From Bacteroidales bacterium (GTDB taxonomy: Bacteria > Bacteroidota > Bacteroidia > Bacteroidales > Bacteroidaceae): a stretch of 64,000 bases of DNA. Where the stretch lies: NCBI GenBank assembly GCA_024690405.1, contig JAILCU010000109.1, forward strand, positions 1 to 64,000, read 5' to 3'. The notes below the pieces were generated by a model, which saw only the letters and a list, made by a program, of their open reading frames with translations, was not told where the DNA came from and searched no databases. This document shows, in pieces, positions 1 to 41,400 of this stretch. The translations under genes and the position numbers were made by a program. Numbering within the stretch: position 1 is the first letter of the stretch; each line of letters opens with the position of its first letter.

Positions 1-804
1 CACCACATAGGTCCACATATAGAGCAGGGCCGCCCAGCAGAAGAACTGCACGAGACCCACCTTCCAGAACGTAGCGGGGGCATTTTTGAGCAACTTAAAC
101 CAGGAAGCACTATCCTCCTGACCGTCCCCGGCCGGACCGCCATTGTACTGAGCATACTCAGCAGGCGGCCATTCCCTGACCTTGATCACCGTATAAATCA
201 CACATACCACCAAGATGGCTGCACCGATGTAGAACGACCAGATGACGGAGTCGGGAACAACGCCTTCGGGAGCGACATTCTTCAAGCCAATCCATGTGAA
301 AAAGAACGGGAAGACAAAACCCACGACGGACCCGGCATTGCAGAGGAACGACTGGATAGAATAAGCCTTGGCCTTCTGCTGCTCGTTGACCATATCCCCC
401 ACCAACATCTTGAAGGGCTGCATCGCCATGTTCAGGCTCGTGTCAAGCAACATCAGCATGATCAGGCCGAAGATCATCACCGCGGAGAGCGACAGACCGA
501 GCGACCCCGAATTGGGTAACAGGCACATCACCGCCACGGCCACCGACGCACCTATAAATAAATAAGGTATACGGCGCCCGAAACGCGTCCAAGTGCGGTC
601 GCTGAGCGTGCCGACGATAGGCTGAACGATAATGCCCATGAGGGGCGGCAAGATCCAGAAATAACTTAAATCGTGCGGGTCGGCACCGAGGGTGCGGAAG
701 ATGCGCGAAATGTTGGCGCTCTGCAAGGCGTAGGCGATTTGAACGCCAAAGAAGCCAAAACTTAAGTTAAAAAGTTTCCAATAGGATAAATTAGGTTTTT
801 GCAT
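1..804 (-). CDS. MFS sugar transporter, GPH/SLC45-like (partial, C-terminus beyond window)
   Basis: Inner-membrane sugar porter; 268 N-terminal residues are visible and the gene runs off the left edge, still open. The protein begins MQKPNLSYWKLFN and shows alternating hydrophobic segments with the charged loop SDRTWTRFGRRIPY between helices 2 and 3, a hallmark of GPH/SLC45-type sugar:cation symporters (family knowledge). It lies 107 bases downstream of the LacI gene on the same strand, probably in one transcript. Its likely job (inference) is to carry maltose or maltooligosaccharides, released by the Sus proteins and the amylase, from periplasm to cytoplasm. It has no match in the classical B. 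thetaiotaomicron sus order, but such a porter beside a LacI regulator is common in related loci. Confidence 0.85.
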   Translation of the reverse strand, partial: MQKPNLSYWKLFNLSFGFFGVQIAYALQSANISRIFRTLGADPHDLSYFWILPPLMGIIVQPIVGTLSDRTWTRFGRRIPYLFIGASVAVAVMCLLPNSGSLGLSLSAVMIFGLIMLMLLDTSLNMAMQPFKMLVGDMVNEQQKAKAYSIQSFLCNAGSVVGFVFPFFFTWIGLKNVAPEGVVPDSVIWSFYIGAAILVVCVIYTVIKVREWPPAEYAQYNGGPAGDGQEDSASWFKLLKNAPATFWKVGLVQFFCWAALLYMWTYVV

Positions 805-32794: not shown

Positions 32795-34513
32795 ATGAAT
32801 AGAACGACACCTGCTACAACATCTCTGAGGGTTTTCATCCCTGTACTGCTCTTCCTGCTCTGCACGTTCGCGACGACCCGCACCGCGGCTCAAGCGCAAT
32901 GCCCCGTGGTGCGCATCGTGCCCGAACAGCTACCGTCTCTGAACAGCCCCCGAAGCGGCCATTGTATCTTTTACGCCCATGGTGAACTGACCGTGGCGGG
33001 TGGCCACACCATGGGTTTTGTGCCTGTCAAGACGGCCGAATACCTCTCCGACGGAGCATGGCATACGATGACCATGACCTATACCCACGACAACGGTTTC
33101 GCGTTCTGCCACAACGGCACAGACATCCTCCTTGGCGGAGGTCACAGCGAGGAGCTGGGCGTAGGTCATTCCTACACGCTGGAGCGCTACGACCCCACGA
33201 CGCACTCTTTCGAGGGTTTCGGCTGTCTCGACAGACGGCGCGTGCTGTCCAATACCGCACGTCTGGCCGACGGGCGCATCGTTATCAGCGGCAACCACTA
33301 CGCCCCCGATGCCATCGCCTGCTACGACGGCAGGGCGCAGGTGGTAAAAGTCGAGGACGTCAGGCAAAGCCGCAACAACCCCTACATCCTCCCTATTGCT
33401 GAGGACAATGCCCTTATTATAGGACAAAACGACCCGTATCAGCGATGCCACGACACCATCTGGGCCGACCGCCTTCAGGGCGACGCCTTCAGGGTGCCGC
33501 TTTTGGAGCAGTGGCGACCCATATATACCGACCAGCCCTTCAACACCGGTGCGTGTGCCATAGGCGACACCGGGAAGGGCGAATATGCCTACCTGCTGGC
33601 TGGCCTTGACAAGAGCGGACAGATGGCCCTCATCCTGCTGCGCGACACCGTCTTCTCACTGCTGCCTACCGCCTGCGACATCCCTATGACCAGTCCCTGC
33701 GGACCTGTCCTATACAGGGGGCCGATCGTGGTCGACAAGGCAAGGGAACGAGGGTATATCGTGGGAGTGGACAGCCTCTGCAGACGCCAGTTTGTGCTCG
33801 CCATCGACTACGGACTCAAACCCGCAGCACTGACCCTCTACCACACCGACACATTAGAACATGCAACTATGGTCACCCCCATCCTGAGCCCTGAAGGTGA
33901 CCTGATTCTTGCGGGTGGCAACCCCGATAACAACTTCAAGCCCCTCTCCTCCGTGTGGCTCTACCGCTTCGGCAGTGCCGGCAAACAGAGTGCTGCAGAG
34001 CATGTTGCATCGGCTGGGAAACGACCCGTATGGCTATGGATACTGCTCCCGGCAGGCCTTCTTGCGGTCGTGGCTGTTTACATGATCTCCAAACGCCGAA
34101 GAACGAAGCCTGCCACGACCGGCGAAGACCTTACAGAGAGCGGAAAGCAAATCCAGGACGAGGAACTGATGCAGCGCCTATGCGAGGCGATAGAGCACGA
34201 ACGGCTATTCATCAGGCAACACCTCCGCCTCACAGACATCGCAGTGGATCTCGGAGTCAGCACGACCACCCTTTCCAACTGCATCTCCAGACAACGTCAT
34301 TGCACCTTTACACAGCTCATCACAGAATATCGTGTGCGCCATGCCCAGCAGCTGCTCCGCCAGAACCCGGAAATGAAGATCTACAGCATCTATAACGAAT
34401 CAGGCTTCACCAGCGAATCCACCTTCTTCCGTTGCTTCAAATCTGTCACAGGACTTTCGCCCAAAGAATGGGTTGCCAACAACGCCCCAAATAAAGCCGC
34501 CCCAACCCCCTAA
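32795..34513 (+). CDS. Transmembrane one-component regulator: kelch-like periplasmic sensor plus AraC-type DNA-binding domain
   Basis: 572 residues. The start at ATG 32795 gives a signal peptide (RVFIPVLLFLLCTFATTRTAAQAQ), 44 bases after tamL. Residues about 40-405 form a kelch-like beta-propeller: repeated blades such as GELTVAGGHTMGF, DILLGGGHSEELGVGHSYTLERYDPTTHSF, GRIVISGNHYAPDAIACYDG and DLILAGGNPDNNFKPLSSVWLYRF. One membrane helix (about 411-430, VWLWILLPAGLLAVVAVYMI) and a basic stop-transfer (SKRRRTK) lead to a cytoplasmic AraC-type HTH (about 460-560; LRLTDIAVDLGVSTTTLSNCI, MKIYSIYNESGFTSESTFFRCFKSVTGLSPKEW). Unlike hybrid two-component sensors there is no kinase or receiver, so a periplasmic signal would have to act through the membrane directly. 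It is convergent with the GH2 gene. Target genes unknown. Confidence 0.85.
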   Translation: MNRTTPATTSLRVFIPVLLFLLCTFATTRTAAQAQCPVVRIVPEQLPSLNSPRSGHCIFYAHGELTVAGGHTMGFVPVKTAEYLSDGAWHTMTMTYTHDNGFAFCHNGTDILLGGGHSEELGVGHSYTLERYDPTTHSFEGFGCLDRRRVLSNTARLADGRIVISGNHYAPDAIACYDGRAQVVKVEDVRQSRNNPYILPIAEDNALIIGQNDPYQRCHDTIWADRLQGDAFRVPLLEQWRPIYTDQPFNTGACAIGDTGKGEYAYLLAGLDKSGQMALILLRDTVFSLLPTACDIPMTSPCGPVLYRGPIVVDKARERGYIVGVDSLCRRQFVLAIDYGLKPAALTLYHTDTLEHATMVTPILSPEGDLILAGGNPDNNFKPLSSVWLYRFGSAGKQSAAEHVASAGKRPVWLWILLPAGLLAVVAVYMISKRRRTKPATTGEDLTESGKQIQDEELMQRLCEAIEHERLFIRQHLRLTDIAVDLGVSTTTLSNCISRQRHCTFTQLITEYRVRHAQQLLRQNPEMKIYSIYNESGFTSESTFFRCFKSVTGLSPKEWVANNAPNKAAPTP

Positions 34514-34567
34514 CCTCTAACCCCTAACTAACCCCTAACCTCACCCTAACCTTTCACTCGAGCTCCG

Positions 34568-34590
34568 CTCGCTCATTCGAACGAAGCGAG
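34568..34590. terminator. Hairpin in convergent gap
   Basis: CTCGCT (34568-34573) pairs with AGCGAG (34585-34590), with further partial pairing inside. There is no T-run, but it sits 55 bases after the regulator's stop, between convergent genes. Confidence 0.4.
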
Positions 34591-34605
34591 TCATGTGACT
34601 CCCTA

Positions 34606-34750
34606 CCCCCTAAAAAAGCCCCCTAAAAAAGCCTCCTAAAAAAGCCCCCTAAAAAAGCCCCCCTGCGCCAGCCTCTCCCCCTCCACGGGGGAGATGTCCG
34701 AAGGACAGAGGGGGTCTTTAGGGGGTCCTTAGGGGGTCTTGAGGGGGTCT
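34606..34750. repeat. Repeat-rich junction: 13-bp C5TA6-type array, dispersed double-hairpin element, mirrored T3AG5 array
   Basis: Four copies of CCCCCTAAAAAAG-like 13-mers (34606-34660) are followed by CTGCGCCAGCCTCTCCCCCT, a perfect 8-bp hairpin TCTCCCCC/GGGGGAGA (34674-34694), a GTCC-gaa-GGAC mini-hairpin and GGACAGAGGGGG, then several TTAGGGGGTC units (34717-34750). The last repeats are roughly the reverse complement of the first ones. The array runs into the GH2 stop codon, so the final residues (DPLKTP) are repeat-derived. A second copy of the core element starts at 54390. Confidence 0.85.
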
Positions 34751-37700
34751 ATTGTAATCTCCGCATCCTTTCCGCCCTCTTCCCACCAGACCCTGATCTC
34801 ACGCTGTTCCCCGGGCATGAGGGTGATGTAATTGTCGCTGTAGACGACGGGAAGAACCTGTTCTCCTGCGGCATTCTTGAGGTTCAGACGGAGGAAGGGT
34901 GCGGGCACCTGACTGCGGTTATGCAGACGCACGACGGCCGATCGGCGCCCCTGTTCATCGGGACTGCAGAGGGTGGTGGTGAGGTGTACGTCGGCCTGCG
35001 GCAGGGTGTTGAGGGCCTGGTAGTTGCCTTCCTCGCGACCCATGATATAGGTGTTCTCCGAGACGAGGGTCTTAGCGCCGTCGCGGGTTTCGTGCAGCGT
35101 CAGCCGCAGGAAATAGACATCGGAGGGCACCTCGGGAAGCAACCCCGCAAGGGTGAGCCAAGCGAGGGTGGTGTCGTTGCCACTGTCGAGCGTAGCGCGC
35201 TGGCGGCAGACGCGGCGTCCGTAGAGGTCATAGACCTCGGCGGTAGCCCTGACGCAGGGATGTGCTCCGGCATAGCGGTTGACAATCTCTATGCTGTCGG
35301 TGAGGGCGTTGTATTGGATATGGAGGGGTTCACAGGCTTTCTTGGTGCCGAAATAGGCAGCGGTGGGGTCGAAATAGTAGTCGTAGGTCTGCCACACCAT
35401 CGAGGGCCAGCAGGGATGACTCATCCAGATAAGCAGGCCGGCACGGTGGCGGCTGGTGGACTCGAACATGGCGCGGTAGCCGTTGTAGTTGATGAGTTGG
35501 GCGCGGCGTGTAAAGCTCCGTGCCGAGACAGGCCGTTCGCCGAAGGCCCTGTTCACGAGGCTGTTGAATTCGCGGGCGCGCTGGGCGCCGTCGAGGGTGT
35601 AGTCGTGCTGTCCCCATTGTTTGGACTGCGGCCACAGGGCACCGGGGTAGAGGGTGCGTTCAAGGCTTTCAATGTTCATCACGGCGGGCATGCCCCGCTC
35701 CGTATGGATCTTGCCTGACTGCCGCTGGAAATAGACGCGGGCGGGTTGGGCGCTGTAGGGCCCGTGGCCCGTGACACCGCCGTCGGCCGAACTGGAGAGA
35801 TAGGCGAGGCCCGGGGCATAGTGCGCCACCATGTCGCGGAGGGCCTTGTCGAGCGTAGGGGACGGGAAGCCCTCGTTGCGGCCGCAGTAGATGGCGATGC
35901 TGGGATGGCGCCGCATGCGCAAGAGATAATCGCGGGCATTGTCGGTGAAAAGGGTCTCGTCGTAGGGGTCAGGACCGTCGGCGGGGTTGGCGAGCCAGAA
36001 GTCCTGCCAGATCATCAGGCCGAGGCTGTCGCAGGCTTCGTAGAAATCTTCGTCGCCGATCATGCCCACCCAGTTGCGGATCATGGTGCAATGCATGTCG
36101 CGGTGGTAGCCCACGGCGATGTCATACTCGCGGCGGCGGTAGCAGAGGTTGTGCTCGTCCATGCCCCAGTTGCCGCCCATAGGCACGAAGTGGCGCCCGT
36201 TGATGCGGATGAGCAGACTGTCGGCGGGGCGCTCGTAGCTCATCTCGCGAAGGCCGGCTTTGTAGGTGAGGGAGTGAGTGCTGGAGGTATTGAACGAGAA
36301 GCCGGCATCGTAGCGGTAGGGTTCGCCATAGCCGTTGGGCCACCAGAGGCGGAAGTCGGGCGAGACCAGCTGGGGGTAGTCGGCAGGCAGGAAGGTGAAT
36401 TCTTCGGTGGCATGGGGGGCGAGGGTCACTTCGCGCTCGAAGTGTACGGTGCCGATCCATCCGTGGAGGATGCCGTGGAGGGGCTCTGCAGTGAGGTTGC
36501 GGGCCACGACAGAGGGTGTTACTTCAATATTGGGGGCAGCAGAGGCGGCGGTGCCTACGGGGGCGGCGTCCGCGATATGGGTGCGCACGTAGGGGTCGCT
36601 GAGCTGTATGCCGTCGTGGGTGGTGAGATACACTTCGTTCCAGATGCCCGCATTGCGCCCGCGCACGGTGGTGATCCAGTCCCATCCGATGGAGGCGTGG
36701 AAGGTGGGATTGTCGGCGCCGAGGATGCCTCCGTTGAACTGTGTGGTGTTGGCGTCTTTCTCCTTCACAACGCCGAAATGCTCGTTGCAGATGATTTCCA
36801 CGGCCAGCACGTTGCGCCCCGGCCGCAGATGGTCCGTGACGTCGAAATCGCCGCGCATGAAGGCGCCCTCCACGCGGCCCAGGCGTTGTCCGTTGATGAA
36901 GACGTTGGCTTTCCAGTTGATGCCGTCGAAGTGCAGGCGCTGCTGTGCCCCGCTGCGGAGCAGGTCGTCGGTGACGTCGAATTCACGGCGGTACCAGAAG
37001 TTGGAGCGGAAAAACGATTCGGAGATCTGTTCGGCATTGTCGCCATAGTTGGGATGGGGCACGGCGCCGATGTTGACATAGGACATCAGTGCGGTGGCGG
37101 GTACGGTGGCCCATATCCAACCTGTGGTGTCGAAGCCTTGTGTGGCTACGGTCTCGCCCGTGGCATGCACCTCCGAGGCGCGTTGCAGCTGCCAGGGGCC
37201 TCCGTTGAGCGGCAGGAGGTTGTCGGCGACCGGACGCTCTGCCTCGCGTGGGGTGATCACAGTGCCTCCGGTGCCCCACACCTCCAACTCGCGCAGGGCA
37301 TAGCAACCTGCAGCGCCGGCTTCCTGCATCACCAGGGTGACGTAGCGCCCGTCGGCCGAGACGATGGGGTGCCACCGGCGCGGCTCATGGTACCAGTGGG
37401 GCACGATGCGTTCTACGCAGGCGGGTGCACCGAGGTCCACGCAGAGCCACTGCGGTCCTCCGCCATTGCTCATCCACATGCTGCAGAACTGCTGAGAGGG
37501 CTGCGCCCACACTTCCCGCCCGGCGGCATCGAAGAAATGCAGGTCGTGGATGTCCCAATGCACGGCGCCTTCCATCCTGAGACAGAGACGCAGATGCCCG
37601 AAGGCCTCGGGGCTGACGCTGTCGAGGGGCAGGGTGAGGTCCAGGTTGCGGGCAGGCAGGTAGTCGTTGCCGGTCTGCTTGTTGGGGTCGGCATGCAGTT

Positions 37701-38349: not shown

Positions 38350-38458
38350 GGTGAAACGATGGGGCAAAAGTAACATTTTTTTCTGGGTGCAACGCTTTTT
38401 ATGGCAGAAAATTTCTGAGGGTCGGCAGAAAATGCTACTTTTGGGGCATCGTTTCATC
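38350..38458. promoter_or_regulatory. Mirror-image divergent promoters of the GH2 and GH29-GH3 genes
   Basis: Minus-strand TACTTTTG (38365-38372) and plus-strand TACTTTTG (38436-38443) are both exact -7 boxes. The sequence around them is a 25-base inverted repeat (38350-38374 against 38434-38458, 20 matches), including the early leader ATCGTTTCA on both sides; the spacer is 59 bases. The three central mismatches exchange GGG for CCC. Both genes should share one regulator. Confidence 0.75.
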
Positions 38459-38477
38459 ATTTACCCTACTCCACGTT

Positions 38478-41400
38478 ATGCGAAAGTGTGCTCTCCTGCG
38501 TTCTCTCTGTATGCTGCTGGCGGCCGGTGCCGTGTGCCTCCAGGCTACGGCCCGCACCGCGCCGTCCGACAGTCTCCTTCCTGCTCCCCTCCCGCCGCTG
38601 CCTACGCCGCAACAGGTGACGTGGCAGCAGATGGAGACGTATGCCTTCATTCATTTCGGGCCCAACACCTTCGGCGACCGCGAATGGGGCTACGGCGATG
38701 CGCCAGCCTCCACGTTCAATCCCGCCCGACTCGACTGCGACCAGTGGGTGCGGGTGCTCAAGGCTGCAGGCATGAAGGGCGTCATCATCACTGCCAAGCA
38801 CCACGACGGCTTCTGCCTCTGGCCCACGCGCTACACCGACTACAACGTACGCAACAGTCCCTGGCGCCAGGGCAAGGGCGACGTGGTGGGCGAGCTGGCT
38901 GCGGCGTGCCGTCGCCACGGACTGCGCATGGGGGTCTATCTCTCGCCGTGGGACCGCCACCAGGCCACCTACGGCACGCCGCTGTATGTGGAGTATTTCC
39001 ATGCCCAGCTCGAGGAACTGCTCACGGGCTACGGTCCTCTGTTCGAGGTGTGGTTCGACGGGGCCAACGGCGGCGACGGGTGGTATGGCGGGGCCTGCGA
39101 GACGCGGCAGATCGACCGGCGCAGCTACTATGACCTGCCGCGGGCTTTCGAGCGCGTGGCGGCACTGCAGCCCGGGGCCGTGATATTCAGCGACGGAGGG
39201 CCTGGCTGCCGGTGGGTGGGCAACGAACGCGGACATGCCAGTGCCACCAACTGGTCGTTCCTGCGCCGCGGCGAGGTTTACCCCGGCTACCCGCACTTCA
39301 GTGAGCTCACCGAGGGCCATGCCGACGGCGATATGTGGGTGGCGGCAGAGTGCGATGTCTCGATCCGTCCGGGATGGTTCTACCACCGCAGCGAAGACAC
39401 CCTGGTGAAGAGTGCCGACGAGCTGTGCGAGCTCTACTATCAGAGCGTGGGCCACAACGCTACGCTGCTGCTGAATTTCCCCGTCAACGACGAGGGCCTC
39501 ATCTCGCCCGCCGACTCGGCCCATGCCGTGGATTTCCACCGGCGCATCCTCGCTGAGCTGAGCAACAACCTGCTGCAGCGGGCCAGGGTGACGGCCTCAC
39601 CGGCTTCCAATGCCTCTTCCAAAACCTCTTCCAACGCCCTCACGAAAGCCCTCACAGGCGCCCTCACAGACGACGACTACTCCACCTTCTGGTCGGCCCC
39701 CGAGGGCAGCACGGCGGCCACGCTCACCTTCACGTTCCGGCGCCCGCAGGAGGTCAACCGCCTGCGCCTGCAGGAATATATTCCGCTAGGACAGCGCGTG
39801 CGGGCCTTTAAGTTGGAATATCTGTCTGACGAGGGGTGGCGCGACGTGCCCGTCGGCGAACCCACCACCACCATCGGCTACAAACGCCTGTTGCGCTTCT
39901 CCACTCTCCGCACACGGGCATTGCGCCTGACCGTCACCGACGCCCGCGGACCGGTGTGCCTCAGCGGAATAGGGGCCTACCGCGCTCCCGACAAGGTTTT
40001 CGATAAGGCTGGCGCAGAGGCTTCCGATAAGGCTGGCGCAGAGGCCCCCGCACCCTCCGACCCCGAGGAGCGCGTGGCGGCGATGCTGAAGGCGATGACG
40101 CTTCGCGAGAAGGTGGGACAGCTGCGCTGCGCCATGGCGTGGGACTACTACACCATCGATGCCCAGGGCCGCATCGCTCCCTCCGAGCGTTTCAAACGCG
40201 ACGTCGCCGACGGCAGCATCGGCATGCTCTGGGCCACCTTCAGGGCCGACCCGTGGACGCGCAAGACCATCGCCAACGGACTCTCTCCGCGCCAGGCGGC
40301 CGAGGCGGCCAACGTGCTGCAGCGCTATACCATCGAACACTCGCGGATGGGCATCCCGCTGCTCCTGGCCGAGGAAGCGCCGCACGGCCACATGGCCATC
40401 GGCACCACCGTCTTCCCCACCGGACTGGGCATGGCCGCCACGTGGTCTGAAGAGCTGATGGAACGGGCCGGGGAGGTCATTGCCAAGGAGATACGCCTGC
40501 AGGGCGCACACATCAGCTACGGACCCGTGCTCGACCTGGCTACAGACCCTCGGTGGTCGCGGGTGGAGGAGACGTTCGGCGAGGATCCTGTGCTCACCGC
40601 CGCACTGGGCGCTGCCATGGTGCGCGGACTGGGCAGCCGCGGGGCTTCGGCGCAGGGCGGCACACTGGCCACGCTGAAGCATTTCGTGGCGTACGGAAGC
40701 AGCGAGGGGGGACAGAACGGGGGACATACACAAATGGGCCCGCGCCAGCTGGCACAGCGCTTTCTGCCGCCTTTCAGGGAGGCGATAGAAGCGGGCGCCG
40801 CGGGGGTGATGACGGCGTATAATGCGGTCGATGCCGTGCCGTGTACGGCCAACGCTTCGCTGCTCACCGACGTGCTGCGCCGTGAGTGGGGCTTCAGCGG
40901 ACTCGTCGTGAGCGACCTCTATGCCATCGACGGACTGGCGGGCACGCACCACGTGGCCTCCGACCGCACCGGTGCCGCGGCTAAAGCGCTGCAGGCCGGC
41001 GTGGATATCGACCTTGGCGCCTCGGCCTATGCCCGCCTCGAGGAGGCCGTGGAGCAGGGGCTCGTGGGTCAGGCACAGCTCGACAGTGCCGTGGCGCGCG
41101 TACTGCGCCAGAAAATCGCTATGGGGCTCTTTGAACAGCCTTATGTGGACCCCGATTCCACGCGGCAGGTGCACAGCGCGGCCCACCGCCAGGTGGCGCT
41201 CGACGTGGCACGGGCCTCCGTCACGCTGCTGAAAAACGAACACGGCGTACTGCCGCTGCAGCCGTCCTCGCGCGTGCTGGTGTGCGGTCCCAATGCCGAC
41301 AACGTTTACAACCAACTCGGCGACTACACGGCACCGCAGCCCGAGGGCGCCGTCACAACGGTTCTCGCGGCCCTGCGGCAGAAGATGCCGACGCAGCAGG

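Follow-up and report, generated by a model that had tools for sequence, protein, structure and literature searches.

A 64,000-nucleotide stretch of Bacteroidales DNA (hereafter the window) encodes a putative membrane-spanning regulator with a kelch-like sensor and an AraC-type output, in the neighborhood of tamBL and of GH2 and GH29-GH3 genes. This raises the question of what such a protein senses and which genes it controls. The original prediction described a ToxR-like logic that departs from the systems usual for glycan sensing in Bacteroidetes, with either neighboring gene group as a possible target.

Architecture and predicted topology of the regulator

The regulator gene and its parts are as follows:

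32795–34513, plus strand: kelch-AraC membrane-spanning transcription regulator of 572 amino acids (open reading frame, Pfam, AlphaFold2, Foldseek)
32795–32896, plus strand: signal peptide, residues 1–34 (hydrophobic helix 9–27 in model and sequence; presumably cleaved)
32900–33979, plus strand: predicted periplasmic kelch propeller, residues 36–395 (phmmer, AlphaFold2, Foldseek, conservation)
Residues 69–79, 115–125, and 166–172, plus strand: conserved strand 2–3 loops of the propeller
34031–34102, plus strand: membrane helix, residues 413–436, followed by KRRRTK (sequence and model)
34157–34483, plus strand: predicted cytoplasmic AraC DNA-binding domain, residues 455–563 (PF12833, model)
34409–34450, plus strand: second recognition helix region, residues 539–552, TSESTFFRCFKSVT (its residues 540, 542, and 547 show covariation with half-site letters)

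The domain order, the predicted topology, and the one-component, propeller-sensing logic first proposed were borne out by sequence, Pfam, AlphaFold2, and Foldseek. An AraC-type HTH (PF12833) was detected above the Pfam cut-off at residues 483–560 (E = 2.7e-18). Kelch_1 was sub-threshold (E = 0.19), and residues 88–175 matched designed kelch propellers in a phmmer search of the PDB (8pju, E = 1.2e-5). An AlphaFold2 model built from a family alignment of 75 sequences had a mean pLDDT of 88 and comprised a helix at residues 9–27, strands across 38–390, a helix at 413–436, and the AraC helices at 455–563, with low confidence in the linker at 436–452. When compared with the PDB using Foldseek, the model matched kelch propellers (E about 1e-11); galactose oxidase was also among the matches, with a TM-score to the query of 0.42. 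The prediction of kelch-like blades agrees with this model, in which the sensor fold is a kelch propeller despite the sub-threshold Pfam motif, its strands, as we read them, forming six four-strand modules and probably a seventh. As first noticed, kinase and receiver domains are absent: Pfam detected none in the regulator at E-values up to 10, and the model leaves no room for either between the membrane helix and the HTH. Judged by sequence, the C-terminal domain with its two HTH motifs places the protein among AraC/XylS regulators. The signal peptide and the positive-inside rule predict that its sensor lies outside and its DNA-binding domain inside, the arrangement of the general class of one-component membrane-integrated regulators, which work without phosphotransfer; the protein falls in that class as well.

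The likeness to ToxR and CadC holds for the one-component logic through a single membrane helix (PMC9214523), but not for domain order or HTH class; in those proteins a winged HTH stands at the N-terminus and the periplasmic domain at the C-terminus, whereas this regulator has the reverse arrangement and an AraC-type HTH, which sets it outside that group. AraC-output HTCS share with it a periplasmic sensor (often a beta propeller in HTCS), a membrane helix, a C-terminal AraC domain, and 21 bp repeats, as the tandem sites of their motifs in Bacteroides are on average 21 bp apart (PMC3878776). The regulator resembles the output half of an HTCS in this way, but it lacks a histidine kinase and receiver and is thus not a member; its sensor is kelch rather than reg-prop/Y_Y_Y or SBP, and its candidate targets encode exported and surface proteins, in contrast to the sugar-utilization loci controlled by HTCS. 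The contrast drawn with SusR (BT3705) did not hold, as SusR is itself a membrane protein, a single chain that senses in the periplasm and binds DNA in the cytoplasm (PMC3878776). The two differ in site spacing and predicted role: tandem SusR sites are spaced by 67 or 77 bp (PMC3878776) and SusR serves starch use, while here the spacing is 21 bp and the candidate targets are surface proteins. Nor is the logic singular within this genome, which encodes several other kinase-less sensor-TM-AraC proteins, with helical TPR-like sensors (L010, L013, and L014 on contigs C143, C46, and C27), a sugar-binding-protein-like sensor (L015, C70), or, in L018 (C97), an HTCS-like propeller that has neither kinase nor receiver.

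The unusual part of the regulator is the kelch sensor, not the logic. Its propeller fold is shared with KLHL/Keap1, galactose oxidase, and designed SAKe proteins, and its conserved strand 2–3 loops lie on the face with which Keap1 binds peptides; fusion to a transmembrane AraC output distinguishes it from other kelch propellers. In the open-access literature, we found no paper joining kelch, the AraC family, and Bacteroidetes, and matches to kelch, AraC, and Prevotella appear to be unrelated reviews.

Distribution of the family and its export-like neighbors

The architecture recurs well beyond this genome. A sensor-alignment scan of a species-genome collection recovered 377 relatives, and the 80 that were kept come mostly from MAGs assigned to Prevotella, Prevotellaceae, or Bacteroidales, many being of ruminant origin; a survey of the open-access literature found no paper on this kelch-AraC family. 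Within the same genus, 24 of 101 genomes encode relatives, sometimes several per genome and mostly about 40% identical, and every member inspected retains the architecture; the genome of the window regulator encodes one paralogue, on contig C66. The closest relatives (L044–L046) are 61% identical. The family is rare at the level of the order, with matches in 9 of 295 sampled genomes; apart from the genome under study, three of these have strong matches. An HTH was present in 84 of the 88 sensor-bearing relatives scanned; three of those without one are cut or N-masked sequences, and the last is a different protein. Sequence comparison thereby confirmed that sensor and HTH are paired far beyond chance.

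Sensor and AraC domain are equally conserved (mean 0.61 each), compared with 0.16 for the linker, and the best conserved part of the propeller is the strand 2–3 loops of blades A to C (0.74–0.84). This conservation of the sensor, and of these loops especially, suggests that the whole family recognizes a ligand of a common type.

Family genes usually lie directly upstream of a same-strand gene for a predicted exported protein, be it T9SS cargo, a BspA-type LRR protein, a C10 protease, or a lipoprotein. By a crude signal-peptide rule, the next same-strand gene was export-like for 58 of 72 family genes, compared with 173 of 411 control gene pairs drawn from those loci (p = 1.2e-9), and the median gap to that gene was 132 bp (38 bp in controls). 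TIGR04183 (T9SS type A sorting) was found on 11 of the 72 adjacent genes, and a list of the 25 commonest families in 72 control genes did not include it. A C-terminal sorting-signal rule gave 23 of 72 versus 12 of 411, most of the 12 positive controls being second genes of the same cassettes. Pfam domains in example neighbors included BspA-type LRR, cleaved adhesin, C10 protease with Spi inhibitor, BACON, laminin-G with BNR repeats, and Por_Secre_tail, and two BACON-domain proteins with lipoprotein-like starts follow the C66 paralogue. These family-wide neighbors encode predicted exported and surface proteins, not sugar-utilization loci, and lend no support to the glycan sensing that had been supposed.

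Several loci differ in ways worth recording. Two tandem family genes, each followed by its own operator-like site (see below), are present in L096, L101, and L102. An arginine-biosynthesis run is a recurrent insertion site of family genes (L057, L059, L067, L071, L074, L096, L102, L103, and L109), in the order argR-like, acetyltransferase, argG, argC, family gene and cargo, and in some cases argD. One match (L030, G066:C12) has a TAA in the matched frame and keeps an operator-like site downstream, and is possibly a decaying copy, and a sensor-query match lacking the HTH and bearing a T9SS-like C-terminus (L089:5963–7693, minus strand) is perhaps a secreted kelch protein.

A direct-repeat element and its match to the recognition helix

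Downstream of family stop codons, we identified a recurring element of the form GACTnnCAA-loop-TTGnnAGTCG(A/T)TTTT-n-TTGnnAGTC, followed by TAnnTTTG and then ATG. It consists of direct repeats of TTGnnAGTC 21 bp apart and lies between the family gene and the exported-protein gene. An AGTC-to-AGTC spacing of 21 bp occurred in 19 of 83 regions, while no spacing exceeded 4 across 200 shuffles. A PWM trained on 38 sites (scores 23–44) identified 81 distinct sites above the threshold of 20 in the fetched loci; TAnnTTTG lay within 70 bp of 76 of these, and 20 or 21 bp past the third (near) repeat in 73, compared with 4% of shuffled sequence containing any such box. Because TAnnTTTG is not part of the PWM, its fixed offset constitutes independent support. 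Candidate AraC/XylS-type direct repeats, about two helical turns apart and near a promoter, are thus found family-wide.

Sites also occur in other positions. One precedes the family gene itself in L057, L061, L065, L067, L071, L074, L096, and L101, which suggests autoregulation; in L096 and L101 the gene preceded is the second of the tandem pair. Sites lacking a family gene directly upstream (L125, L129, L134, L137, and L143) each precede an export-like protein. Two further matches (G065:C42 and G080:C16) were set aside as chance, having no hairpin and a next frame that is not export-like.

Presence of the element tracks presence of the family. The pattern TGNNAGTCNNTTTN8TGNNAGT was found in 13 of the 101 genus genomes, and 12 of these 13 belong to the 24 family-bearing genomes (Fisher p = 2.6e-8); the reversed pattern gave 3 matches in all. 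Half-site letters covary with residues 547, 540, and 542 of the second HTH (HTH2; z = 7.0, 6.5, and 4.1 against shuffles, uncorrected for relatedness), and the HTH2 helix predicted the half-site letters for 20 of 32 held-out members, versus 11–16 for other parts of the domain. For example, GC occurs with FTSERSFFR, TT with FANETSFFR, and GG with FTSESTFFR. The half-site therefore appears to be partly readable from the protein.

We consider it likely, with good though incomplete confidence, that the regulator is a one-component membrane-integrated activator whose AraC domains bind the TTGnnAGTC repeats and drive a gene for an exported or surface protein. The periplasm-facing propeller would bind a ligand, probably through the conserved face of strand 2–3 loops, and the single helix would pass the signal through the membrane to two AraC domains seated on the direct repeat, with half-sites 21 bp apart. 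At a Bacteroidetes TAnnTTTG promoter, the near half-site would adjoin the upstream side of the −33 region, where the bound AraC domains would recruit RNA polymerase. The gene thus switched on would encode a protein that is exported, surface-located, or lipid-anchored, and in most relatives it would be the next one on the same strand. An additional inverted half-site forms a terminator-like hairpin 3′ of the regulator gene, and a site 5′ of that gene in several relatives may provide autoregulation.

One may postulate that the same protein acts at the same operator as a releasable repressor or a promoter roadblock, given that a site so close to a promoter can also block polymerase and that sites 5′ of the regulator gene could mean negative feedback. 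We regard this as unlikely: with the constant 20–21 bp offset, the near half-site would span roughly −41 to −31 and stay clear of the promoter core on its upstream side, and a position directly upstream of the −33 region is an activator's place. AraC/XylS and SusR/HTCS regulators are, moreover, mostly activators (PMC3878776 and general knowledge).

Predicted target of the window copy

Unlike most relatives, the window copy has no adjoining site. The best PWM score in the window was 8.5, compared with 23–44 for the training sites, and TGGGAGTC, the half-site relevant to this protein (see below), does not occur in it at all; searches with the PWM and TGGGAGTC found no operator in 38350–38478 or upstream of the regulator. 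Given this lack of an operator, neither tamBL nor GH2/GH29-GH3, the targets first suggested, is supported. A link to tamL was likewise rejected, as the 902-amino-acid neighbor in L044/L045 has no match to the tamL of the window and the linkage is not conserved. The gap between the regulator and GH2 (34513–34760) is filled by the low-complexity repeats CCCCCTAAAAAAG and AGGGGGTC, with a lone GACTCCC at 34597; this may be what is left of a cis cassette since lost, or a chance occurrence.

The recognition helix of the window regulator, FTSESTFFR, is identical to that of L045, L046, and L050, whose sites carry TGGGAGTC. The whole genome holds exactly two sites, although at a completeness of 88.5% further sites or copies may be missing. 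One, at C66:5293 (TGTTAGTC/TGTAAGT), adjoins the paralogue. The other, at C95:1806–1833 on the minus strand (genome G000), reads TGGGAGTC/TGACAGT within the fragment TGGGAGTCGTTTTTTGTAAATTGACAGT, and has a hairpin arm and a T-run; a TATATTTG box follows at 21 bp and precedes the ATG of the gene for a 232-amino-acid lipoprotein. The match of the helix to the TGGGAGTC class, a class with few examples, the near repeat being degenerate in some (L045, L055), together with the lone genomic TGGGAGTC site on C95, makes this lipoprotein the predicted target. On balance, we favor a window regulator that acts in trans on the C95 lipoprotein gene, while the C66 copy is predicted to serve its own neighbors. 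The lipoprotein has no clear relative in the 101 genus genomes; as a family-wide cargo it was discounted, being only weakly similar to the cargo of L053 and L058.

A role in sensing a glycan and controlling the adjacent GH2 and GH29-GH3 genes appears improbable. These genes are neighbors of the regulator gene, and L055, a member of the window clade, has a same-strand GH2 (48% identical) some 10 bp upstream as well as a GH3 fragment at a distance of about 7 kb. GH2 is convergent to the regulator in the window, however, and no operator is near these genes; no such GH genes were found near the 61% identical proteins of L044/L045, and the element in L055 is downstream of the regulator and ahead of a C10 protease. 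It is very improbable that the element is simply an intrinsic terminator and housekeeping promoter, with the regulator acting elsewhere: its first two arms do form a hairpin followed by a T-run 3′ of the regulator gene, a palindromic part that could by itself be a terminator, but the hairpin does not include the third copy, which keeps a fixed 21 bp spacing, sites are also present 5′ of regulator genes and remote from them, and the element co-occurs with the family and covaries with its helix.

Activation of genes for surface-displayed or released proteins, rather than of the adjacent sugar-cleaving enzymes, is the most likely role of this regulator in its gut or rumen Bacteroidales bacterium. 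What surprises, on the sequences compared, is the size of the family, the constancy of its kelch sensor, the apparently diversifying half-site code, and the consistency of the exported targets. We tentatively suggest, at somewhat less than even confidence, that several hundred or more such regulators make up a plug-in circuit for surface proteins of rumen and gut Bacteroidales, in which the sensor stays nearly constant while helix and half-site co-diversify, such that paralogues in the same cell are insulated, each with its own surface-protein target in cis or in trans, and all answer, through the periplasmic kelch face, one common host, diet, or envelope signal. Outside sugar-utilization loci, the way in which Bacteroidales select the adhesins, proteases, and T9SS cargo shown on their surface is poorly known, and a regulator family with its operator and promoter geometry would make such regulons predictable for each genome. 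These paralogues may also offer a natural set of one-component receptors with diversified DNA specificity, and thus a model for transmembrane transcription factors.
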